A stretch of DNA of 27,545 nt, taken from the IMG/VR virus record IMGVR_UViG_3300045996_000667, positions 1 to 27,545 of that record; one strand, given 5' to 3'. The translations under genes and the position numbers were made by a program. The stretch is from a virus. This document shows positions 2 through 24,287 of this stretch, piece after piece; positions within the stretch are counted from its first letter, which is position 1; each line of letters opens with the position of its first letter. The notes below the pieces were generated by a model, which saw only the letters and a program-made list of their open reading frames with translations, was not told where the DNA came from and did no database searches.

Positions 2-196
2 AATTCGAATAGAACCTACCTCGAATGCCCATGCTGTGGGTGCGAGGGAGCTGAGTCAGACGCTGACGGCCTGTTCAACGACGGCCAGGAACTCATCTGC
101 GGATGCCCTGGCTGGGTGACAGCCGACGGAGATGGCGATGAAAGCTGGGCGTGGATCAATAACGGCGACGAGCCGTGCCAGCAATGTGAATTCTGA
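2..196 (+). CDS. Partial small acidic zinc-ribbon protein (C-terminal part)
   Basis: The reading frame is open from the window edge, so the start is missing; 64 residues are visible. It holds a cysteine cluster CPCCGC near the visible start, a CGC in the middle and CQQC four residues before the end, separated by Asp/Glu-rich sequence. This fits a zinc-binding ribbon of unknown function. Its stop codon (TGA) lies inside the Ser-Glu codons of the tag of the next gene, the same junction style as the rest of the array. Whether it begins with the EFF tag cannot be seen. Confidence 0.6.
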   Translation, partial: NSNRTYLECPCCGCEGAESDADGLFNDGQELICGCPGWVTADGDGDESWAWINNGDEPCQQCEF

Positions 197-383
197 GGAG
201 TTCTTCGCAGCTCTATCTAGGCGCGCTATTCTGTGGTGTCCGACTTGTGATCAACTGACAGCAGTACGTCACATTGGTGCAGACTTAATAGACACCGACA
301 AAAACTGGCAAGTAGGGCAGTGCGAAGAATGCGGCGAGAGAGCCAGTTGGTCCGAATGGCAGTTCGAAGAATTGGCCATATGA
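186..383 (+). CDS. EFF-tag zinc-ribbon protein 1
   Basis: 65 residues from a GTG start chosen because it sits just before the tag, as in the sister genes; an ATG 54 bases upstream is possible but would overlap the previous gene more. Tag SEEFFAAL at residues 3-10, then CPTC (18-21) and CEECG (46-50), spaced 24 residues apart, a plausible single zinc ribbon. The C-terminal tail is Trp- and Glu-rich. The stop overlaps the next ATG. Function unknown; family membership rests on the tag plus paired CxxC. Confidence 0.8.
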   Translation: MNSEEFFAALSRRAILWCPTCDQLTAVRHIGADLIDTDKNWQVGQCEECGERASWSEWQFEELAI

Positions 384-628
384 GCAACGACGAGTTCTGG
401 AACGAGCTTCTCGGTCTAAAAATCTTCTGTGTCGCTTGTGCTCTTAGGACAACACATTTACCAAGCCCTCTACCTACGCTGTCTCCGTATAAGGACTACA
501 ACCGCTACGACTGCTCACGCTGCAACTGTCGGTGGGTTTTAGTTAAGGGCGAAGAGGTCCTGCACCAGGAAAGTGGATGGAAACACGACCTCGACTTCGG
601 AGCAGCCTTGGAGTTGCCTCAAGAATGA
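380..628 (+). CDS. EFF-tag zinc-ribbon protein 2 (EFW variant)
   Basis: 82 residues. The tag is divergent, NDEFWNEL at residues 3-10, with Trp replacing the second Phe. CVAC (17-20) and CSRC (45-48) form the zinc pair. The tag codons differ at many third positions from the common form, which argues that the peptide rather than the DNA is conserved. The ATG overlaps the preceding stop. A 30-residue acidic/aromatic tail follows the second CxxC. Confidence 0.8.
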   Translation: MSNDEFWNELLGLKIFCVACALRTTHLPSPLPTLSPYKDYNRYDCSRCNCRWVLVKGEEVLHQESGWKHDLDFGAALELPQE

Positions 629-918
629 ACTGGGACTACCACAAGCAGCGACTACTGGACGGCAAGACCACGTCATTTCGGCCTAAGGGCAACAGCATGG
701 CTCCTCGCATCCTGTCCGGCCAGCTCGTCGTCCTCGAGCCGGCGCACGAGACGTACATTGAGGTTGGAGACGTAGTCTTCTGCAAGGTCGGTGGCAACTT
801 CTATGTCCACCTTGTCAAGGCTATCCAGGATGGCAGGTTCCTCATAGCAAACAACAGAGGCCACATCAACGGCTGGACCAAGGCCGTCTATGGCAAGCTG
901 AAACTCCTGATGCCATGA
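625..918 (+). CDS. S24/S26 serine-peptidase-fold protein
   Basis: 97 residues, ATGA overlap with the gene before. GNSMAP (22-27) matches the nucleophile-Ser-Met-x-Pro signature of the LexA/signal-peptidase I fold, followed by SGQLVVLEP and VGDVVFCK, the usual beta strands of that fold. A general base could be His62 or Lys65 in YVHLVKAI; the ANNRGHINGW segment resembles the late S26 motif with an altered acidic residue. There is no N-terminal membrane anchor and no DNA-binding domain, so it is neither a classical signal peptidase nor a repressor. A soluble processing protease is possible; activity is inferred, not shown. Confidence 0.65.
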   Translation: MNWDYHKQRLLDGKTTSFRPKGNSMAPRILSGQLVVLEPAHETYIEVGDVVFCKVGGNFYVHLVKAIQDGRFLIANNRGHINGWTKAVYGKLKLLMP

Positions 919-1319
919 AAGTGCTCTGTTGTGGTAGCAGGCACTGGGACCTTCGAACACCTGTTGAGGCGGCCCTGTCAGACCTGAAGGACTATGACGG
1001 CGGCGATGACCGTGATCTGTTCTTCAAGTCGCTGGACGTAACTCACATCGAGATAGTCCATGGCAACGCTCTCGGCGCCGATTCGCTCTGCGACTACTAC
1101 GCTCGAAAGCTAGGTTACGTTGTCCATCGACACCGTGCAGACTGGAAAAAGCACGGCAAGGCTGCCGGTCCTATCAGGAACCAGGAAATGCTTGATAAGC
1201 ATCCTGACATCTGCCTGGTGCTGGCATTCTCTTGGAATCTGTCAGAAAGCAAAGGCACGGCTGACATGGTTCGCAGGGCCACGAAGAAAGGCATCCCTGT
1301 CAAGGTTATCAGTGGCTGA
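915..1319 (+). CDS. SLOG-family (DUF2493/YspA-like) nucleotide-binding protein
   Basis: 134 residues, ATGA overlap. Hallmarks in order: CGSRHW (6-11), HGNALGADSLCDYYA (49-63), ADWKKHGKAAGPIRNQEML (75-93), then LAFSWN and SKGTADMVRRATKKGIPV. These are the conserved blocks of the DUF2493 branch of the SLOG superfamily, Rossmann-like proteins proposed to sense or process nucleotide-derived ligands and common on phages and mobile elements. The real substrate is unknown. It sits directly between the peptidase-like gene and an EFF gene, so it is co-transcribed with the array. Confidence 0.85.
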   Translation: MKVLCCGSRHWDLRTPVEAALSDLKDYDGGDDRDLFFKSLDVTHIEIVHGNALGADSLCDYYARKLGYVVHRHRADWKKHGKAAGPIRNQEMLDKHPDICLVLAFSWNLSESKGTADMVRRATKKGIPVKVISG

Positions 1320-1524
1320 CAGCGACGAGTTCTTCTTCAGTCTAATAGATCCTGTCGTCAATGTCTCACACGTTGAAGCATACTGCCCACGCTGCAAGGC
1401 TATGGCAGATCATGACAAAAAGACCTACGGAAATCCTCTAAGGTGTGCATACCTTTGCCGCCGCTGTGGGCTTCTAGAAGACTTGCCAAACTCGAAATTC
1501 CTAACATATGGACAGTTCTACTAG
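1312..1524 (+). CDS. EFF-tag zinc-ribbon protein 3
   Basis: 70 residues from a GTG that overlaps the SLOG stop codon. Tag SDEFFFSL (4-11); CPRC (25-28) and CRRCG (49-53) with an extra Cys45. The motif follows the start within three residues. Divergent from its neighbours outside tag and cysteines. Function unknown. Confidence 0.78.
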   Translation: MADSDEFFFSLIDPVVNVSHVEAYCPRCKAMADHDKKTYGNPLRCAYLCRRCGLLEDLPNSKFLTYGQFY

Positions 1525-1735
1525 TTCCGAGGAATTCTTCGGCGCATTGGCGATTAGGCTGAACGTCAGTTGCCCAAGATGTGACGATCCGCCTCTTAGT
1601 AGCACTGTCGTCGTTATCGACCGCTACAACGCGCTAGACCCAGATGGCAAGCAGGTTTACCCAAAGGTGCAGTGCGAGAAATGCCGCTTCGTAGGTGTAG
1701 TTCCAGAGTCTTGGCTGGAGGAACGGCGTGTCTGA
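1508..1735 (+). CDS. EFF-tag zinc-ribbon protein 4
   Basis: 75 residues. Tag SEEFFGAL (7-14) after a short Ser/Thr leader; CPRC (22-25) and CEKC (56-59). The 30-residue span between the cysteine pairs is among the longest in the array and contains a Val/Ile-rich strand and a YNALDPDGK turn. It overlaps the preceding gene by 17 bases. Confidence 0.8.
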   Translation: MDSSTSSEEFFGALAIRLNVSCPRCDDPPLSSTVVVIDRYNALDPDGKQVYPKVQCEKCRFVGVVPESWLEERRV

Positions 1736-1925
1736 TAACGAGGAATTCTGGGGCGCGCTAGTTGGTATAGATCTGAACTGCTTAAAGTGCGACAGCGTCA
1801 CGAAGCACATTGAAGCAGAAAATATCCAAGACTGGCATACGTTCCGGCCATACCGTTGCACAGTGTGCAAAAAGGGTGAGCGGCTTTACCCGCTCGACCC
1901 CGAAAATCAGAAATGGTGGCGCTAG
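1728..1925 (+). CDS. EFF-tag zinc-ribbon protein 5 (EFW variant)
   Basis: 65 residues from a GTG overlapping the previous stop. Tag NEEFWGAL (4-11), CLKC (18-21), CTVC (44-47). It is the last array gene before the integrase, which is on the other strand; the two stop codons overlap, so any terminator must lie inside coding DNA. Confidence 0.8.
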   Translation: MSDNEEFWGALVGIDLNCLKCDSVTKHIEAENIQDWHTFRPYRCTVCKKGERLYPLDPENQKWWR

Positions 1926-3037
1926 GCCATAGCCTTCTGGAACGTGTCGAGCCTCTTGGCCGCATCTTCTAGCATGGCCTGGTCGACGATCGTATAGCGC
2001 CGATAGACGTCCTCAGTCTTATGGCCAACCATCTGCATGGCCGCCTTCCTGCTCACTCCTGCCAGCTCGAGATTCCTGACAGCCGTCCTCCTGAAGTCGT
2101 GCAGGAACCTTTCAAGTCCTGCCGCCGCGCAGGCATCATTCCAAGCCTTGTAGAACGACCTGATAGGCTCGCCAGACGACCTGACGAATACGTATGGCAC
2201 CTTCTTCTTGGTCTTCTCCTCGATCTTGTCGACGTACTCGCGCTGCGCTGTCAGGACCCTGCGAAGTTCATCAGTGAACATGAACGTCCTGCCAACCTTC
2301 TTGTCCTTGCCCTGCCCGACGTACAGCAGCAACTGGCCGTTGTCGAAATCGACGTCAGACCACTTTCTGGTGAGCAATTCGGACTTGACGCGCCAACCTG
2401 TGATGTAGGCCACGTCCAGAACAGGGTGATAGCGCTTGCCGAGGTGTTTTTTGATGGCAAGAACCTCGTCCCGGCTGAAGAATCCGTGCCTGACGTTGTT
2501 TTCTGGCAGCTTGTCCATGAGCGGCACGGTCGTGATCTTGCCGGCTTTGAACGCCAGCCTCATTCCGCGCTTCAGTGCGGCGCATTCTCGGTTAATCGTG
2601 GCCGAGGCTGCCCCAGCTTCCTTCCTGGCCACCTGATAGCGCACGACAGCGGCCGTCGTTATCTGGGAGGCCCGCCAGCCGCCGAAGAACGCTGCCAGCT
2701 TGGGCATGGCGGTGTGCGTGAGTCTGTAGAGGCTCTGCCTGCGGTCCTTGAGGGTGTAGTCCTGCTTGACGAGGCTCAGGCAATCCTCGAAGGTCGTGCT
2801 GCGCTTGTCCGTGATCGGCACGCCGTCCTTGCGGGACTGATTCCGGTCGATCAGCAGCTGCATCGCCTTGCCGTAGTCGTCCGTGTCGGTCGTCTCGGTC
2901 TTGTACTCGCCGCTGACGTAGTACCCGAGGCTGTAATTGGGCGATTCTCGCATTTCGCCCGTCTTCCGGTCGCGCCATTTCGCCTTGAACACTCGTCCGA
3001 GGCCCCACGCCGACGCTTTTTTGGCTTTTCTTGGCAT
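1922..3037 (-). CDS. int: Tyrosine-recombinase integrase
   Basis: 371 residues. An N-terminal Arm/SAM-like domain (roughly 1-165) precedes the catalytic domain. Catalytic signatures: ITGWRVKSELLTRKWSDV (first Arg), HDFRRT (His-x-x-Arg), GHK (third basic position) and the Tyr in VYRRYTI near the C-terminus. This is the lambda-integrase/XerC superfamily that recombines attP with attB. An AGGAG ribosome site lies just before the ATG. It reads away from the adjacent tRNA-Leu and the repeat-rich block, the usual int-attP arrangement. All catalytic residues appear present, so it is probably functional. Confidence 0.95.
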   Translation of the reverse strand: MPRKAKKASAWGLGRVFKAKWRDRKTGEMRESPNYSLGYYVSGEYKTETTDTDDYGKAMQLLIDRNQSRKDGVPITDKRSTTFEDCLSLVKQDYTLKDRRQSLYRLTHTAMPKLAAFFGGWRASQITTAAVVRYQVARKEAGAASATINRECAALKRGMRLAFKAGKITTVPLMDKLPENNVRHGFFSRDEVLAIKKHLGKRYHPVLDVAYITGWRVKSELLTRKWSDVDFDNGQLLLYVGQGKDKKVGRTFMFTDELRRVLTAQREYVDKIEEKTKKKVPYVFVRSSGEPIRSFYKAWNDACAAAGLERFLHDFRRTAVRNLELAGVSRKAAMQMVGHKTEDVYRRYTIVDQAMLEDAAKRLDTFQKAMA

Positions 3038-3174
3038 CCTGGCTCCTACGCGTTCGGGAATTTCACGCTCGCTGCGTTGCTACGCGCATTGCACGTGTTA
3101 TTTTACCCCAAAACACACACAAAATGTGTGTGTGCGCTTCGGATTCCTAGAATTTCTTTAAAGGAACACAAAAC

Positions 3175-3191
3175 ACACAAGAATTTTGTGT
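3175..3191. promoter_or_regulatory. Operator-like dyad ACACAA-N5-TTGTGT (copy 1)
   Basis: A perfect 6-bp inverted repeat with 5-bp spacer, upstream of the integrase start. Its 22-bp surroundings match the sites at 9168 and 11606 at about 17 of 22 positions. Size and symmetry fit a dimeric HTH regulator; no binding protein is identified here. Confidence 0.5.
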
Positions 3192-3346
3192 TGTTTACGG
3201 GATTTTGAGTCCTGTTGAGAAGTGAGAATATGCCCTAAAATCGCCAAAATCAAGCAAATTCGCTGCGTTGCTCGCTGTGTTTACCAGCTTTCGCGCTACG
3301 ATCGCCCCAGAATGCAGCGAGCAGCCGAAACAGGCCCGAACTGAGG

Positions 3347-3352
3347 TATAAT
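3347..3352 (+). promoter_or_regulatory. Consensus -10 box of the tRNA promoter
   Basis: TATAAT, a perfect sigma-70-type -10 hexamer, ends eight bases before the tRNA 5' end, the right distance for transcription to start at or just before the tRNA. No good -35 hexamer is seen at 17 bases. Confidence 0.6.
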
Positions 3353-3360
3353 TGTGCTTT

Positions 3361-3447
3361 GGCGGTGTGGCGGAACTGGCAGACGCAGGAGACTCAAAAC
3401 CTCCCGACCTCACGGTCATGTGGGTTCGATTCCCACCACCGCCACCA
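3361..3447 (+). tRNA. tRNA-Leu (anticodon CAA)
   Basis: Complete type II tRNA with encoded CCA. The acceptor stem GGCGGTG pairs perfectly with CACCGCC, followed by discriminator A and CCA. The D stem is GCG/CGC. The anticodon loop CTCAAAA gives CAA, reading UUG, on a stem with an A.C mismatch at the innermost pair. The long variable arm GACC-tcac-GGTC is diagnostic of Leu/Ser/Tyr tRNAs. The T arm is GTGGG/CCCAC around TTCGATT. Its place next to the integrase suggests it is or overlaps the attachment site; it could also supply UUG decoding to the phage. Confidence 0.95.
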
Positions 3448-3461
3448 CCTAACGCGTTAGG
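3448..3461. repeat. 14-bp perfect palindrome after the tRNA
   Basis: CCTAACGCGTTAGG begins at the base after the tRNA CCA. It could be a short processing or termination hairpin, a protein site, or part of a crossover core. There is no T-run, so a simple intrinsic terminator is unlikely. Confidence 0.5.
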
Positions 3462-3514
3462 GCAACGAATGAGCAAACAACAGATACCATTGTGCAAGGG
3501 CGGCTGGCAACAGA

Positions 3515-3751
3515 ATGGACAAGTCTGACGAGTTCTTCGGAGCGCTAGCACCTGGCACGCCGCAATACTGCCACCACTGCGAGCGCGTGACAAAGTGGCT
3601 CAGGCTGACAGCCACGGAGAGATATAATTACGGTTCGTCATACACGGCGTGGTCAAAACTCATATGCAGCGAGCACGAAACGTCGTATGGACACCACGTT
3701 TACGGCTTGCCGGACGTGATCTATGAAGTTGACATGTCTTACGGCAACTGA
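3515..3751 (+). CDS. EFF-tag protein 6 (first array gene after the tRNA)
   Basis: 78 residues. Tag SDEFFGAL (4-11), CHHC (19-22). The second ligand pair is changed to Cys51-x2-His54, so a C3H-type zinc site is possible. Tyr/Gly/Ser-rich centre. It opens the right-hand, longer part of the array; no promoter other than that of the tRNA is obvious. Confidence 0.78.
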   Translation: MDKSDEFFGALAPGTPQYCHHCERVTKWLRLTATERYNYGSSYTAWSKLICSEHETSYGHHVYGLPDVIYEVDMSYGN

Positions 3752-3771
3752 CACTGACACACGTAACACAC

Positions 3772-3951
3772 ATGGATAGCGTGCAAGCTGACAAGTCGGC
3801 CGAGTTCTTCGAGGCCTTGAGGGAAACCATCATCAAGCGCTGTTCGGGTTGCAAGGAACAAACAGAGCACTCCTATAGTTATGGAAAACATTACGTCTGG
3901 TACGAATGCGAACGCTGTCATGCCCTCACAACAGAACACAGACCAGGCTGA
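3772..3951 (+). CDS. EFF-tag zinc-ribbon protein 7
   Basis: 59 residues. Tag SAEFFEAL (9-16) after an eight-residue leader; CSGC (24-27) and CERC (46-49), with a Tyr-rich span between. Its stop TGA is embedded in the Ala-Glu tag codons of the next gene. One of the smallest intact members. Confidence 0.78.
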   Translation: MDSVQADKSAEFFEALRETIIKRCSGCKEQTEHSYSYGKHYVWYECERCHALTTEHRPG

Positions 3952-4129
3952 GGAGTTCTTCGCAGCGCTGGCCGAAATTGTCAGACAACATTGCCTGGAC
4001 TGCGAAGCAACGGTAGACCATTACACCTATCAGCTAGCTGACAGAACAAGGCATGTGTGCAGATTCTGCGGACTGATGGTGGAGCGATTCAAGAATGGCG
4101 ACGTCACCTTCACCAGAAACAGCGGCTGA
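3920..4129 (+). CDS. EFF-tag zinc-ribbon protein 8
   Basis: 69 residues from the ATG nearest the tag; another ATG 39 bases upstream would give a longer leader and a larger overlap. Tag AEEFFAAL (10-17), CLDC (25-28), CRFCG (47-51). The tag DNA (GAGGAGTTCTTCGCAGCGCTGGC) is nearly the same as that of the C-terminal tag in the distant gene at 20597. Confidence 0.78.
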   Translation: MPSQQNTDQAEEFFAALAEIVRQHCLDCEATVDHYTYQLADRTRHVCRFCGLMVERFKNGDVTFTRNSG

Positions 4130-4331
4130 CAGGTCGGCCGAGTTCTTTCAGGCGCTGGAGCCGTTATACCGTCTCTACTGCTATTTTGGCTGCTGCATGG
4201 ACACACCTCACAGGATTACAGGCCCTTTCACCGACCCGATCTTCCACCAAGACATTGTCTATGTTGGTTGCACACTGTGCAACGGTACTGACTATTGGCC
4301 CCGCAAGACGCTTGAGCGCCATGCCATCTGA
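4095..4331 (+). CDS. EFF-tag protein 9, modified first zinc pair
   Basis: 78 residues. The longest leader of the array (13 residues) precedes the tag SAEFFQAL (14-21). The first cysteine cluster is CYFGCC (29-34), spaced Cx3CC rather than CxxC; the second is CTLC (59-62). It overlaps the previous gene by 35 bases. Confidence 0.78.
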   Translation: MATSPSPETAADRSAEFFQALEPLYRLYCYFGCCMDTPHRITGPFTDPIFHQDIVYVGCTLCNGTDYWPRKTLERHAI

Positions 4332-4518
4332 TAGGTCTGAGGAGTTCTTTCAGGCTCTTGAGTCGCGCTGGATGCTCTACTGCTTTGGGGTCTGCCGTAA
4401 ACAGCGGCAGCACGTATCTAAAGACGTGGTCCAAGGTACCCACACGATGAAATGCCTCACATGCGGCTACCTAGAAGAATGGCATGAGGATGTCCTCTGT
4501 GCAGACTACCAAATCTGA
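4321..4518 (+). CDS. EFF-tag protein 10
   Basis: 65 residues. Tag SEEFFQAL (6-13). The first pair is CFGVC (21-25, Cx3C), the second CLTCG (45-49), with one additional Cys near the end. The Cx3C spacing is shared with the preceding member, hinting that the two arose by duplication. Confidence 0.8.
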   Translation: MPSDRSEEFFQALESRWMLYCFGVCRKQRQHVSKDVVQGTHTMKCLTCGYLEEWHEDVLCADYQI

Positions 4519-4708
4519 GGAGTTCTTCCAGGCGCTGTCAAAGATGGCAACCTTGTACTGCGATGGGTGCAATTGCGCAACGGCATGGCGTTACCTCGGC
4601 CCAGAACCTGTCTACAAGCATGTAGGCTGGATAGAAGCCGAATGCACACGGTGCAACGCTGTAGCTCCTTGGCTTGACGTCACCTTTGACCGCAATGGCA
4701 TATCCTGA
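4490..4708 (+). CDS. EFF-tag zinc-ribbon protein 11
   Basis: 72 residues from the second of several possible starts (ATG; an upstream ATG and a downstream GTG are alternatives). Tag SEEFFQAL (9-16), CDGC (24-27) plus Cys29, CTRC (52-55). The stop codon of the previous gene lies inside this tag. Confidence 0.78.
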   Translation: MSSVQTTKSEEFFQALSKMATLYCDGCNCATAWRYLGPEPVYKHVGWIEAECTRCNAVAPWLDVTFDRNGIS

Positions 4709-4913
4709 CGACTTCTTCGAGGCGCTGAACATCCTGAACGGCCTGACAGAACGCTGTCAGGAATGCGGGCGCGCTATCAGCGAGGACGAATTCAGAGTGA
4801 ACTGGCAAAGCTGCGAGCTCTGCTTGGACGCCGCCATCGAAGAGTACTACCTAGCAGAAGCTGCCAAGGCTGAGAGGGAATATGAGCAACTCAAAGAGTT
4901 TGGGCAGATCTAA
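4695..4913 (+). CDS. EFF-tag zinc-knuckle protein 12 with helical tail
   Basis: 72 residues. The tag is divergent at DNA level, PDDFFEAL (4-11). CQECG (21-25) and CELC (40-43) are only 15 residues apart, the tightest pair in the array. A charged Ala/Glu-rich tail (about 44-72) should form a long helix and could make a coiled coil. The start overlaps the previous stop. Confidence 0.8.
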   Translation: MAYPDDFFEALNILNGLTERCQECGRAISEDEFRVNWQSCELCLDAAIEEYYLAEAAKAEREYEQLKEFGQI

Positions 4914-5109
4914 AGAGTTCTTTCAGGCGCTAAGACCGATGGCCCTGCTGTCGTCATCTTTCCACCCATGCGGAGATTCCGTATATGGGCGCTCAAAGAT
5001 GATTATCACAGACGAGAGAGACGACCGGTACACATACTGCGTTTGCCCACAGTGCGGCTACAAGGACGGATGGTACCATGACACTGTCGAGAAGAACCTG
5101 TGCCAGTAG
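4882..5109 (+). CDS. EFF-tag protein 13, reduced first zinc pair
   Basis: 75 residues. Tag SKEFFQAL (10-17). The first site has only His-Pro-Cys (28-30) and the second is CVCPQCG (53-59), so ligands may be H28/C30/C55/C58. The upstream stop TAA is embedded in the Ser-Lys codons of the tag. Confidence 0.76.
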   Translation: MSNSKSLGRSKEFFQALRPMALLSSSFHPCGDSVYGRSKMIITDERDDRYTYCVCPQCGYKDGWYHDTVEKNLCQ

Positions 5110-5294
5110 ACAAGGCTGAAGAGTTCTTCCAGGCGCTATCAACGTTGGCGAGACTAAACTGCCCTTACTGCGGGCCGCAACGCACCGTAGCTAAGCTGGA
5201 ACCACACGATGCAGCCACGACAGTAGGACAATGCATGTCTTGTCGAAAAACATCTATCTGGTTTAACTATTCTTGGGATCGCTTTGCCCTCTAA
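5100..5294 (+). CDS. EFF-tag zinc-ribbon protein 14
   Basis: 64 residues from GTG. Tag AEEFFQAL (6-13), CPYCG (21-25), CMSC (45-48). A compact member close to the family average. The tail is aromatic (WFNYSW). Confidence 0.8.
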   Translation: MPVDKAEEFFQALSTLARLNCPYCGPQRTVAKLEPHDAATTVGQCMSCRKTSIWFNYSWDRFAL

Positions 5295-5523
5295 AGCCGA
5301 AGAGTTCTTCCAGGCGCTGGACATGATCTGGGCCGACTGCGATCGGTGCAACCCTAAGACAAGGCGAGAAGGAAGCCACACCTGGTTGAGCGTAATAGGT
5401 TGGTACGCAAATGCGATGTGGGCTAAGACTGAGTGCCAGACATGCGGCAACATCGTATGGCACAGCGCCGGCTACATCGAAGCTCGCAAAAATGAACAAC
5501 CTCGAGGTCGGGTAAGGGCATGA
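5284..5523 (+). CDS. EFF-tag zinc-ribbon protein 15
   Basis: 79 residues from a TTG start forced by frame and tag position. Tag AEEFFQAL (5-12), CDRC (19-22), CQTCG (51-55); Trp-rich centre and a basic end. The upstream stop TAA lies in the codons just before the tag. Confidence 0.78.
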   Translation: MPSKAEEFFQALDMIWADCDRCNPKTRREGSHTWLSVIGWYANAMWAKTECQTCGNIVWHSAGYIEARKNEQPRGRVRA

Positions 5524-5654
5524 TCAATCTCCTAATATTCCTGCTCAGGTTCTACGACGTTCTACTCGTTGGACTGGCAGGCTCGTTCATTCTGGCCGTC
5601 ATCTGGTCGGCAGCCTCATGGCTGGCAGGACTGATAACTTATGTCCAAGACTGA
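5520..5654 (+). CDS. Small membrane protein
   Basis: 44 residues, ATGA overlap with the preceding gene. Two hydrophobic stretches (about 3-8 with 14-22, and 23-41) suggest one long or two short membrane segments; no signal-peptidase site is evident. It is the only untagged membrane gene inside the array. Its stop is embedded in the tag codons of the next gene, so it occupies a normal cassette slot. Possible holin-like or membrane-stress role, unproven. Confidence 0.6.
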   Translation: MINLLIFLLRFYDVLLVGLAGSFILAVIWSAASWLAGLITYVQD

Positions 5655-5880
5655 AGAGTTCTTCGAGGCGCTGTCAATGCGGTTCAGTGGTGCTCACGGC
5701 CAGTGCGCGCCAACACTAGCAGAATCTGGCGGCGTTATCTGGACTGTCGACATGGCCAGCTATCAGGCTGTCAAGCATGAATTACTTGACAACGTACTAG
5801 TCAAGTGCTCTCGCTGCAAGCGATGGTGCCGCACAACAAAATCTTACGTCGATGATAGACTCAGCACACATGCAGTCTGA
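5641..5880 (+). CDS. EFF-tag zinc-ribbon protein 16 (GAH subfamily)
   Basis: 79 residues. Tag TEEFFEAL (4-11). The first half-site is GAHGQC (His19, Cys22) and the second CSRC (56-59). The body, with W-x2-D-x3-SY-x2-V in the middle and K-x4-D near the end, is shared with the gene at 7785, so these two are true paralogues beyond the tag. Confidence 0.82.
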   Translation: MSKTEEFFEALSMRFSGAHGQCAPTLAESGGVIWTVDMASYQAVKHELLDNVLVKCSRCKRWCRTTKSYVDDRLSTHAV

Positions 5881-6157
5881 AGAGTTCTTCGCAGCCCTGA
5901 CAGGCACCATGTGCGGCATCTGTTATGCCCCGATAGTGCCTACCGAGAAGCCGTTGGGTGGCAAAGGCTACTACTTCGTATACGTCTGGGACCACGATTT
6001 CATCCCTCCGAACTGTAAGAAGGACGAGGATTCCTATTGTCAACTCCCGATGTGTCCAGGCTGCTATGGCTCGTGGGGAATGACCTCGGCAGGAAATATA
6101 AGATCTTGGGAACTGTGGGTAGTCTCAAGGAGGAAAGAACTTGGCCTCAAAGGCTGA
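5870..6157 (+). CDS. EFF-tag zinc protein 17 (long form)
   Basis: 95 residues from the ATG next to the tag; an ATG 18 bases upstream is possible. Tag SEEFFAAL (3-10), CGIC (15-18), Cys49, Cys57, CPGC (62-65). The 43-residue insert between the CxxC pairs is Tyr/Gly/Asp-rich and the tail is basic. The larger spacing suggests a different zinc fold or a binding loop. Confidence 0.78.
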   Translation: MQSEEFFAALTGTMCGICYAPIVPTEKPLGGKGYYFVYVWDHDFIPPNCKKDEDSYCQLPMCPGCYGSWGMTSAGNIRSWELWVVSRRKELGLKG

Positions 6158-6371
6158 AGAATTCTTCGAGGCTTTGCACACTGTGCAATCGACGTCCACT
6201 TGTCCATCCTGCAAGGCCACAGAAATGGCTAGGCCATACAGGCATATCACTGGACAATGCGCCTGGGAGTTATTCTGCCAGTGCGGCGAGAGTTTTCAGT
6301 CATCTCCTCGGGGAACATACTACAAAGACCTAAAAGCCATAGGCCACAGGCTACCAGACGATCATGACTGA
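6141..6371 (+). CDS. EFF-tag zinc-ribbon protein 18
   Basis: 76 residues from TTG, supported by a strong AAGGAGG ribosome site seven bases upstream, one of the few in the array. Tag AEEFFEAL (5-12), CPSC (21-24), Cys40 and CQCG (46-49). Confidence 0.8.
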   Translation: MASKAEEFFEALHTVQSTSTCPSCKATEMARPYRHITGQCAWELFCQCGESFQSSPRGTYYKDLKAIGHRLPDDHD

Positions 6372-6564
6372 CAAGTCTCGAGAGTTCTTCAAGGCTATCG
6401 GCGTTGTCGTGCTTGAACTGGAATGCCCATCGTGCGACTCTGAACAACTACATGACTGCGAGCCGCTTCCCGAAGGCGTCTGGGCAGTGATCTGTCAACA
6501 ATGCGGCAATGACTGGAAGAGCTACTACATAGCCCAGAAGAAGTACGATGAAGTATCGCTGTGA
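6364..6564 (+). CDS. EFF-tag zinc-ribbon protein 19
   Basis: 66 residues. Tag SREFFKAI (5-12), the most basic version. CPSC (21-24), CQQCG (44-48). The P-LPEGVWAVICQQCGNDW segment resembles the C-terminal half of the genes at 8008 and 8589 (F/VW-x-A-x-C-x2-CG-x-x-W), a shared ribbon subtype. Confidence 0.8.
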   Translation: MTDKSREFFKAIGVVVLELECPSCDSEQLHDCEPLPEGVWAVICQQCGNDWKSYYIAQKKYDEVSL

Positions 6565-6706
6565 GAACGGACAGCTCGTGCCAGATCCTGACGGCGATTG
6601 GATAAGGACTGAGATTACTATCGCCACTGGCACAGCTATCAGGCCGCCAGGACTCGACGGACAGAGGATTGTCGTATGGACGCTAAAGAGTTCTGGGACT
6701 CACTGA
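6548..6706 (+). CDS. Small hypothetical protein without tag
   Basis: 52 residues with ATG start, overlapping both neighbours (17 and 31 bases). No EFF tag, no CxxC and no membrane segment; the content is Asp/Thr/Ile-rich. It fills a gap that would otherwise be about 110 bases, so it may be real or chance. Confidence 0.4.
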   Translation: MKYRCENGQLVPDPDGDWIRTEITIATGTAIRPPGLDGQRIVVWTLKSSGTH

Positions 6707-6903
6707 TACCGCCCACCATCGAGCTGGCGATGTGTGGATGTAGCAGTCCCAGCAAGCCTGCCGAGTGTGTGCCAGTCAGGCAAGAGATGGTATGGTTCTG
6801 GAGGGCGACGTGCAAGAGCTGCGGCTGGGAGTACGACTGCCAGCCCGGTGGCGGCTACGCACAAAGGCTGGCTAGAGATGGATACATCCTCCCTAACGAC
6901 TGA
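6676..6903 (+). CDS. EFF-tag zinc-ribbon protein 20 (EFW variant)
   Basis: 75 residues. Tag AKEFWDSL (3-10). CGC (20-22), Cys31 and CKSCG (46-50). Aromatic MVWFW precedes the second knuckle. Its stop TGA lies in the Thr-Glu tag codons of the next gene. Confidence 0.78.
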   Translation: MDAKEFWDSLIPPTIELAMCGCSSPSKPAECVPVRQEMVWFWRATCKSCGWEYDCQPGGGYAQRLARDGYILPND

Positions 6904-7183
6904 AGAATTCTTCGAAGCTGTAGGTGTTGTCAGGTGCATAGCCTGCAGTCAGTTCACCAATAACGGCAAAAGCATGTGCTACGGCTGCTTTATTCCCTTT
7001 ATGCCCTACGAGCGGCTGTTAGAGCTGAAAGAGCGACGAGATGCCTCTTTCTATGCGGCCCCTGACCTCCGATACCGATACTTTCCAGTGCCGTCGACAG
7101 ACCCAACGCCGGCGCGCCCAGAAGCTGACGGACTCGAGAACGCGAGCACGGAACACCCCACCGCATCAGGCGGCCATGATTGA
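6878..7183 (+). CDS. EFF-tag zinc protein 21 with antisense-overlapping tail
   Basis: 101 residues. Tag TEEFFEAV (8-15), CIAC (20-23), CYGC (34-37). About the last 60 residues (Pro/Ala/Glu-rich, no cysteines) are encoded opposite the 3' end of the minus-strand methyltransferase. The family-like core ends about where the overlap begins, so the tail is probably read-through created when the methyltransferase cassette arrived and replaced the original 3' end. Confidence 0.65.
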   Translation: MDTSSLTTEEFFEAVGVVRCIACSQFTNNGKSMCYGCFIPFMPYERLLELKERRDASFYAAPDLRYRYFPVPSTDPTPARPEADGLENASTEHPTASGGHD

Positions 7184-7727
7184 CAGCGTACCTAATGTTC
7201 ACCAGAGGGAAATGACGGCCCAGCAACTCTCGCAGCTGCTCGGTCCTGTAATGCCTCTTATGGTCATGGTAGGGACGTGTCAGGAAATCACCGTTTGGCG
7301 TCGTCATCAGGAACCTGCCGCCAGGCCTCAGCACGCGGGCGACATTCGCCACGAAGGCCTCGTCAGCCTCCACGTGCTCCAACACCTCCACCGCCACCAC
7401 CACGTCGAACGACCGCGCCGGCAGCCGCGTATCGGTCATGTCGTCAATGACGTAGTCGTAGACGTTCGTTCTGGAGGCGATGACCTGCCGACGAATGGCC
7501 TCCGTCGCCCCAAGGTCCAGCCGCTCCTGCAGCTCGGACTGGCGAGGAATGTCGGAGATGATCACCCGACTGCGCAGGCCGATGGTATACTGGCTGCGGC
7601 GACCGCCGACGTCCAGGATTCGCAGAGGGCCGTCTGCCTCCATCTCTCGCAGCATCCTCGAAACACGCCAGTACAGCGGGTGCTCGACAGGGCGAACCAC
7701 ACGGCGCAACGTCTCGTATCGCGTCAT
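6999..7727 (-). CDS. Class I SAM-dependent methyltransferase
   Basis: 242 residues. Motif I is LRILDVGGRRSQYT (about 35-48), a glycine loop that binds S-adenosylmethionine; later FDVVVAVEVLEHV and LRPGGRFLMTTPNGDF match motifs IV-VI of the Methyltransf_11/25 type, and HDHKRHYR resembles small-molecule or lipid methyltransferases. The substrate is unknown; no DNA-methyltransferase DPPY-type motif is seen. It is the only non-integrase minus-strand gene, is G+C-richer than the array and overlaps its convergent neighbour by 185 bases, so it looks like a recent insertion. Confidence 0.85.
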   Translation of the reverse strand: MTRYETLRRVVRPVEHPLYWRVSRMLREMEADGPLRILDVGGRRSQYTIGLRSRVIISDIPRQSELQERLDLGATEAIRRQVIASRTNVYDYVIDDMTDTRLPARSFDVVVAVEVLEHVEADEAFVANVARVLRPGGRFLMTTPNGDFLTRPYHDHKRHYRTEQLRELLGRHFPLVNIRYAVNHGRLMRWGVPCSRSRVRQLLGAPALGLSTALESIGIGGQGPHRKRHLVALSALTAARRA

Positions 7728-7784
7728 AGCTCTAGCATATGCCGATTTTGGCTACCTGACAACACTTACTAGTGTATTCCTTTC

Positions 7785-8021
7785 ATGTCAACATCTGAGG
7801 AGTTCTTTCACGCGCTCGCTCCGTCCGTTATAGGTGCGCACGACGCCTGTCAGGGCAGCTTCGAACATCGCGTGTTCTGGATTATCGACACTGTCAGCTA
7901 TCATGACGTCAGGGATGGACAAGCCATGCTGACCTGCAGCAATTGTGGCCAGCAGGTATGGGCCGCCAAGGCTTGGATCAACGATAAGCTGGACCGAACA
8001 ACGCGACATGACCAATTCTGA
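7785..8021 (+). CDS. EFF-tag zinc-ribbon protein 22 (GAH subfamily)
   Basis: 78 residues. Tag SEEFFHAL (4-11), GAHDAC (His19, Cys22), CSNCG (51-55). Shares W-x2-D-x-x-SY-x2-V and the K-x4-D-x-L ending with the gene at 5641. First gene after the methyltransferase, with a 57-base divergent gap that must hold any promoter; a small ACACT-tact-AGTGT dyad lies there. Confidence 0.82.
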   Translation: MSTSEEFFHALAPSVIGAHDACQGSFEHRVFWIIDTVSYHDVRDGQAMLTCSNCGQQVWAAKAWINDKLDRTTRHDQF

Positions 8022-8211
8022 GGAGTTCTTCCAGGCCCTGACACCGACTACTATGGCTGTCTGCGATAACGACCGCTCGTGCGGCACCACCTTGCACGCC
8101 TGCACGCCACTTCCCGATTCCTTTTGGGAGGCTAGGTGCCTAAAATGCGGGGCTATGTGGGTCAGCAGCCTTGTCATTCATGAGGCGCTCCTAGAGGAGG
8201 GCAAGATTTGA
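8008..8211 (+). CDS. EFF-tag zinc-ribbon protein 23
   Basis: 67 residues. Tag SEEFFQAL (4-11); first cysteines CDNDRSC (19-25, Cx5C), second CLKCG (44-48). The upstream stop is inside the tag codons; its own stop overlaps the TTG of the next gene. Confidence 0.8.
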   Translation: MTNSEEFFQALTPTTMAVCDNDRSCGTTLHACTPLPDSFWEARCLKCGAMWVSSLVIHEALLEEGKI

Positions 8212-8381
8212 CAAAATCTGAGGAATTCTTTCAGGCGCTCACAGGCCCGGTAGTCGAAGCATCATGCCACCACTGCCAGGTTAACAGAATGTTCGTTTGC
8301 ACACATGTTCTAGGACCGCAATGGGAAGCGACCTGCCAAGTGTGCGGTAACGTTATCGCCTTCAGTGTTACTGATGACTAA
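8208..8381 (+). CDS. EFF-tag zinc-ribbon protein 24 (recent triplet, copy 1)
   Basis: 57 residues from TTG. Tag SEEFFQAL (4-11), then TGPVVEA, CHHC (20-23), FVCTHV, W-x-ATCQVCGNV (43-49). Nearly the same plan as the gene at 8589, showing recent duplication; the tail after the second knuckle is shorter. It ends GATGACTAA, the same bases that end the gene at 8468. Confidence 0.8.
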   Translation: MTKSEEFFQALTGPVVEASCHHCQVNRMFVCTHVLGPQWEATCQVCGNVIAFSVTDD

Positions 8382-8400
8382 ATCTGAGGAATTCTTTCAG
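8373..8400 (+). repeat. Direct repeat at duplicated tag junction
   Basis: GATGACTAAATCTGAGGAATTCTTYCAG occurs here and again at 8588-8615, with one base difference. It spans the end of one cassette and the tag of the next and marks the likely crossover DNA of the triplication. Confidence 0.7.
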
Positions 8401-8463
8401 GCGATCACAGGTCCAGTAGTCGAGGCTCACTGCACCGGCTGCCTGCCACGCAGAAGGGATTGA
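8374..8463 (+). pseudogene. Truncated EFF-tag gene (recent triplet, copy 2)
   Basis: 29 codons. Tag SEEFFQAI, TGPVVEAHC and CTGC match the flanking copies closely, then the frame runs into LPRRRD and a stop. The second half of the ribbon is missing, replaced by an unrelated small frame. Probably a broken copy, though a 29-residue tag-only peptide could still be made and could compete with full members. Confidence 0.65.
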
Positions 8464-8467
8464 GCGA

Positions 8468-8596
8468 ATGACTGAATGCGAGCCGGGATACCACGAATGG
8501 GAGTCCGGCGCCGGGTGGGGGACCATCATCGGCGTCAGTCGCTGTAAGCGTTGCGGTCGAGTGTCCCGCGCGTCTGATTTCTCCGGCGATGACTAA
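8468..8596 (+). CDS. Small zinc-ribbon fragment without tag
   Basis: 42 residues. HEW plus SRCKRCGR gives Cys4, His9 and a CxxCG pair, a ribbon-like set, but no EFF tag. It sits where the second half of the truncated copy should be and ends GATGACTAA like the first copy, so it came in as the body of another cassette. It may be an independent gene. Confidence 0.5.
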   Translation: MTECEPGYHEWESGAGWGTIIGVSRCKRCGRVSRASDFSGDD

Positions 8597-8789
8597 ATCT
8601 GAGGAATTCTTCCAGTCGCTAACAGGCCCAGTAGTCGTGGCGCACTGCATCGTCTGCGTCCAGATCGTCAAGTTCGTTTGCACACATGTGCAAGGCTCCA
8701 CATGGAGTGCTACCTGCCAGGACTGCGGCAACGTTTGGGAAAGCTTCTTCACAATCGAGCGTAAATTGATAAAGTCAGGTCAGATTTGA
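8589..8789 (+). CDS. EFF-tag zinc-ribbon protein 26 (recent triplet, copy 3; array end)
   Basis: 66 residues. Tag SEEFFQSL (4-11), CIVC (20-23), FVCTHV, CQDCG (43-47), then a basic/aromatic tail ending GQI. Last gene of the array. Closest relative is the gene at 8208. Confidence 0.82.
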   Translation: MTKSEEFFQSLTGPVVVAHCIVCVQIVKFVCTHVQGSTWSATCQDCGNVWESFFTIERKLIKSGQI

Positions 8790-9167: not shown

Positions 9168-9184
9168 ACACAAGTCTTTTGTGT
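9168..9184. promoter_or_regulatory. Operator-like dyad ACACAA-N5-TTGTGT (copy 2)
   Basis: The inverted repeat extends to ATACACAA/TTGTGTAT (9166-9186). It matches the site at 11606 at 18 of 22 positions and lies 24 bases before the -35 hexamer of the next promoter. Confidence 0.6.
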
Positions 9185-9243: not shown

Positions 9244-9396
9244 ATGGTTACTTGGTTTGGTTCTGACGCGGTCGGTTTGGCGCTTGCGGCGCTTGGCTAT
9301 GACCGCTTGCGTTCTGTTAGCACCCTGTCTGCTGCTGAGCGTCTAGCATTCGATGCCGTTCTGGATGCCGCTATCAGGGTGCTCAATGTCCGCTAG
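9244..9396 (+). CDS. Small hypothetical protein
   Basis: 50 residues with ATG. Starts MVTWFGSDAVGLALAALGY and continues as an Ala/Leu-rich helix with RLRS and AAERLAFDAVLDAA. Probably a small helical protein. First gene after the promoter region; the next gene overlaps its 3' end by 11 bases. Confidence 0.6.
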   Translation: MVTWFGSDAVGLALAALGYDRLRSVSTLSAAERLAFDAVLDAAIRVLNVR

Positions 9397-9637
9397 GTCT
9401 GAGCGTAGACGGTTGCGCGCCATGGTTCACCGTTCCCTAGTGTCCAGCCACTACCGCAGTGCTAGCACTCAGCCCGATACCTCGGCGCGCGCCACCTACA
9501 TGGCAGAGTCTATCGTCCGTTCCTATGCTCTGACCGTCGTATCTCGCAAGGCTAGCGCTGACAGTTCCGTTAGCAAGGCTAGTCCGTATCTGTCTCACGT
9601 TTGCGCCACCTACGGCGCATACATTCAACAGGAGTAG
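9386..9637 (+). CDS. Small basic hypothetical protein
   Basis: 83 residues from the ATG overlapping the upstream gene. The N-terminus is strongly basic (SERRRLRAMVHR), the rest Ser/Ala-rich with YMAESIVRSYALTVVSRKAS. It may bind nucleic acid. Function unknown. Confidence 0.65.
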   Translation: MSARSERRRLRAMVHRSLVSSHYRSASTQPDTSARATYMAESIVRSYALTVVSRKASADSSVSKASPYLSHVCATYGAYIQQE

Positions 9638-9640
9638 ATC

Positions 9641-9979
9641 ATGCGTAACACTACCTCTAGCCGTCTTGTGTCACGTGGCAAGGTTCGCAAGGTGGCTCAG
9701 CCTGCCGTCCCTGCCGTTGATCCTGCCGTTCTGGCCGCACTCGGCAATCCTGCCGTTCTGGCAGGGCTGATACAGGCTCTGCAAGGTGGCAAGGTGGCTC
9801 AGCCTGCCGTCCCTGTCCAGCCTGCTACGCTCAGCCTGCCGATCAATGGCAAGCCTGTTTCCCTGTCAGTTGACGGGCGCAAGGCAGACGGGAGCGTCCG
9901 GCGATACAAGGGATCCGTTATCACTTCGATCAACGGTGCTCAGTTCACGGTCTACCTCAGCGCATACGCTCAGAAGTAG
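9641..9979 (+). CDS. Basic Pro/Ala-linker protein, paralogue of the 11724 product
   Basis: 112 residues with ribosome site CAGGAG. Basic N-terminus (1-17), an Ala/Pro/Val segment containing KVAQPAVP twice (17-24 and 51-58; a 25-bp direct DNA repeat at 9689 and 9791), then a beta-rich C-terminal domain (62-112) ending FTVYLSAYAQK. Spacing and ending match the gene at 11724 (L-x-L...TL-x-F...G-x4-V...F-x3-Y-x-K). An abundant DNA- or virion-associated protein is possible. Confidence 0.72.
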   Translation: MRNTTSSRLVSRGKVRKVAQPAVPAVDPAVLAALGNPAVLAGLIQALQGGKVAQPAVPVQPATLSLPINGKPVSLSVDGRKADGSVRRYKGSVITSINGAQFTVYLSAYAQK

Positions 9980-9995
9980 TCGGCAGGCACTAGCA

Positions 9996-10023
9996 GACTA
10001 GCAGGGTATCGGCCCTGCTAGTC
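9996..10023 (+). terminator. Strong hairpin after the 9641 gene
   Basis: GACTAGCAGGG pairs perfectly with CCCTGCTAGTC (11 bp) around a 6-base loop, 17 bases past the stop codon. No U-tract follows, so it may be a processing or stability element, or the first helix of the structured region, rather than a true terminator. Confidence 0.5.
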
Positions 10024-11013
10024 TCTAGCAGAGCCTATCACGGCATGCGCCTTGATCGGTTCTGTTAGAGACTACCAAGTCTCTAGCTCTTTACATACCG
10101 CGTAACAGCGCTGTAGGTTCGGGCGATTCGCCCACTATGGCCAACAATGCGGACTAGACTCAGGTGGCAGACAGTGACGCTATTGTCACTGCCGATACCG
10201 CTAGAGAAGCAAAAGACCGTAGAGTCTAACGTAGGCACGGCGAGTGCAATCACATAGACCACGGCGAGTGCATTAAGACCACGTCGCGCAGTGAAGCGCT
10301 TTAGGTGGCATGCACGGTAGCATCCTAGCAATTGCCCAGCAGATTGCGGTTTTAGCGTGTTTAGCCGTTCGTTAGTGGCCTAGCATGCCGTGACAGTAAT
10401 ACGTCCTAGGACGTCCCGCTAATCGTGCCGCATAGGTTATCCGTTGGCGGTATCTGCCGACTAAGTAGCATCCTGCCTGCCTGCCTTTAATGGCCACCTG
10501 AGTCTAGTCTGTATTGGCGCGAATGACAGTGTATGGTCGTCCCTGCTAGCACGTGGCAACGTCTAGCAGGCACCGTTAGTGCTGTTACTGTGCTGGCATA
10601 GCCTGAAAGACTACAGGCTAGCACTCAGGCAGGGTAAGCACTAGCACGCTATACGCCTACAGGACTGTCTAATACTGCCATTCCAATAGAGGGGATAGAT
10701 CCGACTAACCTGTAACGGACCTATCGCCGGCCCCACCACAACCAGGCCTGCCCCGCGACTTCATCAGTCGACCGAAGTGGACCAAGGGAGTAGTGTGTGC
10801 CGACGTATGCCCCTAGCCGGATGCAATATATCCTGCCCAACCGCGCATAGGATGCGAGCCTTCCATAGGCCATGATCCCTATACGCGCCTAGCCCCTGCC
10901 TTCTAACCGCTAGGCTTGCAGGACAATCTGGCGTCAACCATGCACGTTCAATAGTAGGTGGTTGACAAAGGCAGCGGGTTTAACCTCGAGTTAAACCGGC
11001 GAGCTGCGGGAAG

Positions 11014-11103
11014 TAGAGAGGGAGGAAACGGGACCGAAACAGCCCAAGCGGGGCATGGCTTAACCATGCCTGTCAAGTAAGCTGCTAGTAGGTCCCCTCT
11101 CTA
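11014..11103 (+). ncRNA. Nested four-helix RNA element
   Basis: The closing stem TAGAGAGGG/CCCTCTCTA (9 bp, 11014-11022 with 11095-11103) encloses GACC/GGTC (11032-11035 with 11091-11094), CAGC/GCTG (11040-11043 with 11081-11084) and a terminal hairpin GGCATGG-cttaa-CCATGCC (11052-11070). All helices nest in order. It lies about 90 bases before the ribosome site of the 11196 gene, so a leader or regulatory role is possible. Confidence 0.5.
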
Positions 11104-11195
11104 TAGAACGGGTCTGCTATACCTGGCCAAACCGCTGAAAGGCTAGGGAACCGCTCTATAGGGAGCATCTTAACCGCCCTAACTGGAGGAAACCA

Positions 11196-11324
11196 ATGTC
11201 TATCAAGACCTATGAGTGCCCAACCTGCCACGCCTTCGAGTTCAACTACATCCGCCCGCACTACTGCAGCAACTGCGGCCGCAAGGGCAAGCTGCGCCGC
11301 ATCATCGGCTGGTTCATCGGCTAG
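11196..11324 (+). CDS. Tiny zinc-ribbon protein without tag
   Basis: 42 residues with an excellent GGAGG ribosome site. CPTC (9-12) and CSNCG (26-30), then a basic GRKGKLRRIIGWFIG tail that could lie along a membrane or bind nucleic acid. This is the bare ribbon plan of the EFF proteins without the N-terminal tag. Confidence 0.7.
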   Translation: MSIKTYECPTCHAFEFNYIRPHYCSNCGRKGKLRRIIGWFIG

Positions 11325-11327
11325 GCC

Positions 11328-11441
11328 ATGCTGAGACTGTTCGCCTACGCATCCTGGGCTGCCGTGATGGCGCTGTTCGTCTACATCACAGTAGTCCCTA
11401 TCCTTAACCACGTTGTCACTGTTCTGGGGAACCTGCGATAA
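11328..11441 (+). CDS. Tiny single-span membrane protein
   Basis: 37 residues, almost entirely one hydrophobic helix (about 3-32), starting three bases after the preceding stop. Its last base is shared with the next start codon (TAATG). Function unknown; size and topology suit a phage membrane effector. Confidence 0.6.
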   Translation: MLRLFAYASWAAVMALFVYITVVPILNHVVTVLGNLR

Positions 11442-11593
11442 TGCTGACACTGCTGCTCGTCCTTGCCCGTAACGACGTCGTCCGACTGGCCAGCCCCGAG
11501 ACGCAGTGGTGGCTGTTAGGGCTGGTCGCAATCGAGCTGTTCACCGAAATCGTCGGCTACGCCCATTGGGTCGAATATCGGCTCAACCGCTAG
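11441..11593 (+). CDS. Small membrane protein
   Basis: 50 residues. A short hydrophobic start (MLTLLLVLA), a polar middle, then a second hydrophobic stretch (about 22-37) and a basic end. Coupled by TAATG to the membrane gene before it. A holin/spanin-like pair is one possibility, without direct support. Confidence 0.58.
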   Translation: MLTLLLVLARNDVVRLASPETQWWLLGLVAIELFTEIVGYAHWVEYRLNR

Positions 11594-11723: not shown

Positions 11724-12146
11724 ATGTTCGCCAACACCACCGCCGCCACCCGCGCCCGCAAGCAGGCTTTCATCGCCAAGGTTGCCGCCCGCAAGCAGGC
11801 CAAGACCGCCAACCGCCACACCACGCGCACCGCGAGCCGCAAGGCCCAGCCCGCCACCGCCGCGCCCGCCGTCAACCCGCAGGCTGCGTTCATCCAGGCC
11901 CTCGCCGCCGCGCTCGGCCAGACCCCCATGGCCGCTGCCCTGCTCAAGGCCAACGGCGGCACCAACGTCGGCACCGTGGGCAACCCGACGCCGCAGCTCA
12001 ACACCGCGCCCATCACCCTGAACCTCGGTGACCTCGGCACCCACACGCTGACCTTCGCCCGCGAGTCCAAGGGCCACAAGGCCGTCCACGAGCTGGTGCT
12101 GGAGGACGAGAACAGCAAGTTCTTCATCAGCCGCTACTCCAAGTAA
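11724..12146 (+). CDS. Basic Ala/Pro-linker protein, paralogue of the 9641 product
   Basis: 140 residues from the ATG behind ACAGGAGGACACT. The first 42 residues are highly basic and Thr/Ala-rich, followed by an Ala-rich helical segment (47-76), a Gly/Asn/Thr linker and a beta-rich C-terminal domain (95-140) ending FFISRYSK. It parallels the 9641 protein in order and ending. Codons are strongly C-ending, unlike the EFF array, hinting at high expression. Confidence 0.75.
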   Translation: MFANTTAATRARKQAFIAKVAARKQAKTANRHTTRTASRKAQPATAAPAVNPQAAFIQALAAALGQTPMAAALLKANGGTNVGTVGNPTPQLNTAPITLNLGDLGTHTLTFARESKGHKAVHELVLEDENSKFFISRYSK

Positions 12147-12159
12147 CCGCTACCCACAT

Positions 12160-12200
12160 GGACAGGGCTGGCCCTATGGCTAGTCCTGTCCAACCTCGCA
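12160..12200 (+). repeat. Conserved hairpin repeat, copy 1
   Basis: GGACAGGGCT and AGTCCTGTCC form a 10-bp stem (one G.U) around a 12-base loop, followed by AACCTCGCA. The same unit recurs at 14401, where the G.U is a G-C pair. It lies just past the stop of the 11724 gene and before the ribosome site of the next small gene. Confidence 0.7.
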
Positions 12201-12237
12201 ACAAGGCCAGTGACAGTGGCTTTGTTAGGAGGTCGTC

Positions 12238-14392: not shown

Positions 14393-14418
14393 ACAAAACC
14401 GGACAGGGCTGGTAGAAT
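14390..14418 (+). promoter_or_regulatory. Putative promoter overlapping the hairpin repeat
   Basis: TAGACA (one mismatch to TTGACA), a 17-base spacer, then TAGAAT (one mismatch to TATAAT). The -10 lies in the loop of hairpin copy 2, so the inverted repeat flanks the -10 as an operator would. The best sigma-70 match I found in the window. Confidence 0.6.
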
Positions 14419-14441
14419 GGCTAGCCCTGTCCAACCTCGCA
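14401..14441 (+). repeat. Conserved hairpin repeat, copy 2
   Basis: GGACAGGGCT pairs perfectly with AGCCCTGTCC across a 12-base loop, followed by AACCTCGCA. It differs from copy 1 by a compensated stem base and by loop changes, so the fold or symmetry is under selection. Confidence 0.7.
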
Positions 14442-14450
14442 GTCAGGGCC

Positions 14451-14462
14451 ATACACGTGTAT
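14451..14462. promoter_or_regulatory. 12-bp palindrome ATACACGTGTAT
   Basis: Perfect palindrome downstream of the promoter and hairpin and before the ribosome site of the 14493 gene. The half-site ATACAC is shared with the ACACAA dyads, but the spacing differs. Confidence 0.45.
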
Positions 14463-24114: not shown

Positions 24115-24287
24115 CCTACTGCGCCATGTGTCACCACGAGTACCTGAAGACTCGGCCGCGTTGCCCCGCCTGCGGCCACGTCCCAGCAAACAAGGAGAAC
24201 CGCACAATCAACGAGCAGGACGACGACTTCACAAGACAGCTCAGTCTGGTAGCGAGTTCGGTCAATCGAAGGAGCCAGCAGCGATGA
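24105..24287 (+). CDS. Small zinc-ribbon protein before Ku
   Basis: 60 residues. CAMC (6-9) and CPACGH (20-25), a compact ribbon, followed by a polar tail. ATGA overlap with Ku, so the two are translationally coupled; a functional link to DNA ends is possible but unproven. Confidence 0.68.
   Translation: MPLTYCAMCHHEYLKTRPRCPACGHVPANKENRTINEQDDDFTRQLSLVASSVNRRSQQR

Follow-up and report, generated by a model that had tools for sequence, protein, structure and literature searches.

What occupies the 1.2 kb between the stop codon of gene p1 (9979) and the start of a gene for a 42-aa zinc-ribbon protein (11196) in this phage? The window, i.e. the whole stretch of DNA analysed here (27,545 nucleotides), covers the initial 27.5 kb of a virus record of 125,713 bases (IMGVR_UViG_3300045996_000667), and the remainder of the record encodes large terminase, portal, head, and tape-measure genes. 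A sequence-only reading had described 9980-11195 as gene-free and packed with helices, and had raised the possibility of a giant ornate RNA.

Gene content and source of the gap

The claim that 9980-11195 holds no credible gene is borne out by both the ORF listing and the base periodicity. No ORF of at least 90 aa is found in 9980-11084, and the only ORFs of at least 60 aa in the gap are a minus-strand ORF with a TTG start (10083-10331) and the reverse frame of the next genes. The gap also shows no three-base periodicity (chi2 of 5.8-9.7 on 6 df, where neighbouring or known genes score 34.6, 43.1, and 110.9). Adjoining genes are all on the + strand, and the paralogs p1 and p2 (BLASTP E 0.003) stand on either side of the structured region. 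No large structured region follows p2, no family match was found for p1 or p2, and the AlphaFold model of p1 is uninformative (pLDDT 45).

Another assembly (IMGVR_UViG_3300042904_000085) matches with 100% identity across the 13 kb compared and has the same terL at its end, so the structured region is genuinely phage DNA; being identical, this assembly offers no sequence variation for analysis. The isolate nearest in TerL is Tunturiibacter phage Tunturi_4 (35.6% identity), an acidobacterial siphophage (PMC11924767), and TerL identity to IMG/VR relatives reaches about 47%.

Folding strength and predicted architecture

Compared with dinucleotide shuffles, the + strand of 9980-10690 (711 nt) folds at -315 kcal/mol vs -250 for the shuffles (z = -11.0, 20 shuffles), and with 40 shuffles z is -9.2 on the + strand and -6.4 on the minus strand. 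Across 24 other 711-nt segments the mean z is about -1.3 and the minimum -5.0, and the most extreme 200-nt segment in a folding scan of the whole record is that at 9921. Inverted pairs scoring at least 8 number 22 in the region, vs a mean of 6.7 and a maximum of 12 in 60 shuffles, and both their count and their best score are the highest among 176 segments of the same record (mean count 5.8). The region also contains the strongest hairpin (10019-10074) and the longest long-range helix (10145-10168/10493-10516) of the 125.7-kb record, i.e. its folding potential is unique within the record.

About 20 helices are predicted, most with a pair probability of at least 0.88, which agrees with the stems reported earlier for this gap. 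The bulged hairpin that had been named at 10542-10570 is likewise recovered, as 10539-10554/10559-10573. Dense packing with helices holds for about 0.7 kb (9982-10680) rather than for 1.2 kb, since structure in 10690-11195 is no more than moderate (z -2.9 to -3.6, equal on both strands). This second stretch carries four palindromic hairpins (10933-10966, 10977-10997, 11052-11070, and 11096-11165) and the record's second-highest inverted-pair count. Because 9982-9986 and 10675-10679 pair with each other, they would be the natural ends of an element of about 700 nt (Table 1).

Table 1. Coordinates of the predicted structural elements and of the genes around them (P, pair probability).
Feature	Position	Strand	Details
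Upstream gene p1	9641..9979	+	112 aa; paralog of p2 with a basic N-terminus
Main structured domain (proposed ncRNA)	9982..10679	+	z -9 to -11
Outermost closing pairs	9982-9986/10675-10679	+	P 0.97
Hairpin H1	9990..10028	+	17 bp, P 0.98, 11 nt past p1 stop codon
Alternative long hairpin	10019..10074	+	26-bp stem, 2 mismatches; incompatible with H1/H3
Hairpin H2	10030..10063	+	13 bp
Hairpin H3	10064..10087	+	10 bp, P 0.91
Central-domain closing helix	10105-10118/10655-10668	+	12 bp, P 0.90
Long-range helix	10145-10165/10496-10516	+	21 bp, 2 G-U, 330 nt apart, P 0.98
Inward continuation of long-range helix	10166-10187/10459-10481	+	P 0.89
Further inward helix	10191-10206/10442-10457	+	P 0.88
Bulged hairpin	10539..10573	+	P 0.90
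3' branched hairpin	10575..10645	+	17 + 10 bp, P 0.92 and 0.88
Second, weaker structured stretch	10690..11195		z -3.6 (+), -3.5 (-)
Zinc-ribbon-like protein	11196..11324	+	42 aa, GGAGG ribosome site, first gene past gap
p2	11724..12146	+	140 aa, basic N-terminus, paralog of p1

Two conformers are predicted for the 5' domain (9980-10103), at -62.2 vs -60.0 kcal/mol, a gap of 2.2 kcal/mol. In the alternative conformer, four complementary 5' strands re-pair as the 10019-10074 hairpin and an outer helix. The core of H1 is a perfect 12 bp (9995-10006/10013-10024). The 5' arm of H2 (10035-10048) is 93% complementary to 10383-10396 over 14 nt; this pairing could be a pseudoknot or an alternative to H2, and may be chance. 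Two of the 4 best inverted pairs (10016-10077 and 10035-10048/10383-10396) clash with the MFE fold. Further in, the long-range helix, whose 24-nt arms are 92% complementary, and the two helices inward of it are predicted to form a rod of about 54 bp.

Known RNA families, homologs, and related phages

The sequence-only reading had guessed that no known class would fit, and the Infernal search against Rfam agrees. At gathering and permissive thresholds, the window, the two halves of the gap, and the rest of the record return only tRNAs and chance matches. The covariance model of GOLLD (RF02032), run on the whole record with E up to 10, has no match, nor do permissive scans; the model of ROOL (RF03087) also has no match in the whole record at E up to 10, a result to be read with the control genomes, which are equally without a match and leave its sensitivity undemonstrated.

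GOLLD and ROOL, two RNAs of phages, often lie close to tRNA islands and form cages made of RNA only, and GOLLD expression rises in lytic growth (PMC12286853). Like the element described here, GOLLD is a large ornate RNA of hundreds of nucleotides in gene-free gaps of phages and prophages (PMC12286853). The candidate differs in lacking a match to the model, nearby tRNAs, and a recognised GOLLD conserved 3' domain: the nearest Rfam tRNA (3361-3444) is 6.5 kb off, and the main tRNA cluster lies near 51-52 kb of the record. In its predicted form the candidate is close to ROOL in length (659 nt for ROOL env-120; PMC12286853), multi-branched with possible pseudoknots, and phage-borne. It differs from ROOL, whose cage is homo-oligomeric, in having no match to the model and in not being near tRNAs. 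A divergent GOLLD or ROOL RNA past the reach of Rfam would account for the size of about 700 nt, the phage origin, and the ornate fold, but given the empty model searches and the distance from any tRNA island we regard this explanation as very improbable.

A closer parallel in setting comes from phage ICP1, whose most abundant transcript, about 800 nt long, is noncoding and comes from a 1-kb gap that has no ORFs, adjoins the lysis cluster, and is not near tRNAs (PMC7567579). The two cases have in common a gap of about 1 kb without ORFs, a phage genome of 126 kb, no tRNAs nearby, and no assigned class. The same folding test gives z of about -2.3 for the ICP1 gap, i.e. the structural signal at 9980-10690 is much stronger than at this proven ncRNA gap. 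By contrast, the abundance of the ICP1 RNA is proven by RNA-seq and its folding barely exceeds chance, whereas here an extreme fold is predicted. The ICP1 ncRNA and the region share no sequence similarity. By analogy, the element could work like the GOLLD, ROOL, or ICP1 RNAs; by the features tested, it does not belong to GOLLD or ROOL.

Searches for homologs of the region returned only the identical contig. Blastn of the region against phage and plasmid records and tblastn of p1 and p2 find no homolog, and peptide-pattern scans for p1, p2, and TerL recover only that 100% identical contig. TerL alignment scans yielded 40 viral and 14 genome loci; across 33 of these records, the best blastn match of the region is a chance one within a coding frame. 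Exact motif scans of IMG/VR yield no homolog and one extra match attributable to chance, and two single-sequence covariance models find none in 683 kb and 26 records or in six genomes. These empty searches are weak evidence, as there is no homolog to serve as a positive control; absence and divergence are indistinguishable. Divergence from the nearest viral relatives is too great, and the accessory genes of the window are found in none of them. The identical contig has no substitutions from which covariation could be read.

Two relatives, Tunturi_4 (64453-66825; L011 14453-16825) and IMG/VR 3300048854_000056 (L068 9900-11920), share a homologous gene-free, CTAG-rich region of about 2 kb. As in our phage, with which they have a head-tail gene set in common, the largest gene-free gap is a CTAG hotspot, but folding is weak and no sequence similarity to our region is detectable. 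Both gaps carry the conserved string AAAGGnTCTTTGACAATnTnGGCAG upstream of a CobT-like gene, a gene that our phage lacks. Along the operon behind that gene are type-P5 twister ribozymes, four in Tunturi_4 (L011 8349-13149, minus strand) and two in 3300048854_000056 (L068 13206 and 15789); none is found in our phage.

Readings of the element and other features of the phage

On balance, we consider it somewhat probable that 9982-10679 encodes, on the + strand, a large structured ncRNA that belongs to no assigned class. This reading is drawn from a z of -9 to -11 over 711 nt that is the extreme of the record, from ends that pair mutually around nested and compatible helices of high pair probability, from the absence of coding periodicity and of a DNA-site signature, and from the precedent of the ICP1 ncRNA in an ORF-less gap (PMC7567579). 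The + strand is favoured because it folds better than the minus strand and because the neighbouring genes are all on it. Of the earlier proposal of a giant ornate RNA, the large, strongly structured, gene-free element of GOLLD- or ROOL-like size stands; its RNA nature is unproven, as G-T and A-C oppositions are balanced and no promoter or terminator above chance was found across the region.

How the candidate would be transcribed and processed, from which strand, and how it would act in trans and function, we infer as follows. An RNA spanning 9982-10679 would be made within, or cut from, a + strand transcript of the operon at 9244-11593. It would fold by itself into a closed, particle-like domain comprising a cluster of stable hairpins on the 5' side with two competing conformations, the rod (about 54 bp), and hairpins on the 3' side, all held together by the helices that join both ends. 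It would most likely act in trans during infection, as a scaffold or a self-assembled particle in the way proposed for GOLLD and ROOL. More tentatively, and with a chance we put a little short of even, it may represent a new RNA class, large, self-folding, phage-encoded, and without kinship to GOLLD, ROOL, or OLE, from a phage distantly related to acidobacterial siphophages, and distinguished by the long rod and by a 5' domain able to switch between two four-strand pairings of near-equal energy.

Part of the evidence also fits palindrome-rich DNA without RNA function, either produced by local inverted duplication of CTAG-containing motifs or used as a DNA site in replication, in recombination, or by a binding protein. 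Both strands fold well, and in helices chosen by Watson-Crick pairing, i.e. without regard to strand, mismatches are evenly split (31 G-T vs 30 A-C). This strand-symmetric wobble test gives no sign of selection at the RNA level, so the inverted repeats may have arisen at the DNA level, and with a single sequence and balanced mismatches strand-specific selection is unproven. CTAG is enriched seven-fold in the region (21 per kb vs 2.9), and since the excess reaches the genes just upstream (9.4 per kb), the surplus of inverted repeats may partly be a compositional quirk. The CTAG hotspots of Tunturi_4 and 3300048854_000056 show no comparable folding, which also agrees with a DNA-level origin, and the palindromes of 10690-11195 resemble operators. 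However, chance palindromy seldom yields many mutually compatible helices that span 700 nt and close it end to end, the region is not near the terminase or an integrase, and it has no iterons, tandem array, or skew switch. An origin with iterons, the alternative that had been set against the RNA from the start, is unsupported: only 2-copy short repeats (13 nt, at 10236 and 10260) and minimal tandem repeats are present, with no direct-repeat array, and the cumulative GC skew falls steadily across the region with no turning point. Overall we find a DNA element without RNA function rather unlikely.

A cis-acting role can also be envisaged, in which the RNA of 9980-11195 is a long leader that regulates elongation in, or translation of, the small-protein operon from 11196, the two conformers acting as a switch (antitermination or attenuation). 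The gap immediately precedes 11196 and shares its strand, the conformers are close in energy, and the phage has repeated hairpin leaders just before ribosome sites at 12160 and 14401. Against such a leader, the strong domain is closed on itself and more than 500 nt from the next start codon, no T-run terminator separates it from 11196, and 1.2 kb is an unusual leader length, and we judge this role unlikely.

To our knowledge, few classes of large phage RNA exist, and the jobs of GOLLD and ROOL are unknown. If the new-class reading is true, an unrelated large RNA in a phage lineage related to an acidobacterial isolate would mean that such RNAs arose repeatedly. The candidate would then provide a single sequence for in vitro folding and self-assembly tests. 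It also illustrates a limit, namely that Rfam and comparative pipelines cannot see an RNA of extreme fold that occurs in only one genome.

The phage has several other recurrent features. The repeated hairpin leader GGACAGGGCTGGnnnnATGGCTAGnCCTGTCCAACCTCGCA lies ahead of ribosome sites at 12160-12209 and 14401-14451 of the window, and its copies differ by G-U/G-C in the stem. A candidate phage promoter family, TTGACA-CA-CACANNNNNCTTGTG-TATNNT, has a palindrome in its spacer, a possible repressor operator, with copies on the + strand of the record at 38395, 49704, 64164, 103201, 115138, and 121098. Related palindromes without the promoter are found at 9169 and 11607 of the window, on either side of the cassette of p1 and the candidate RNA.

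About 40 short ORFs have in common an N-terminal tag pattern, (S/K/N)-x-E-E-F-F-x-A-L, and in most of them CxxC pairs come next (window 132-8789, 15947, 25888, and 26610, and record positions up to 125670); the tag pattern has 0-4 occurrences in six related phages. The tag resembles a shared signal for targeting, docking, or processing in a family of small zinc-ribbon proteins. The ORF at 24281-25147 of the window is, judging from its sequence, presumably a Ku-like DNA-end-binding protein. Finally, near-identical protein starts (ASLSRLSVAD-DEFFFSLI) occur at both ends of the record (window 1120-1524 and record 125338-125670), and may mark a possible diverged terminal duplication.
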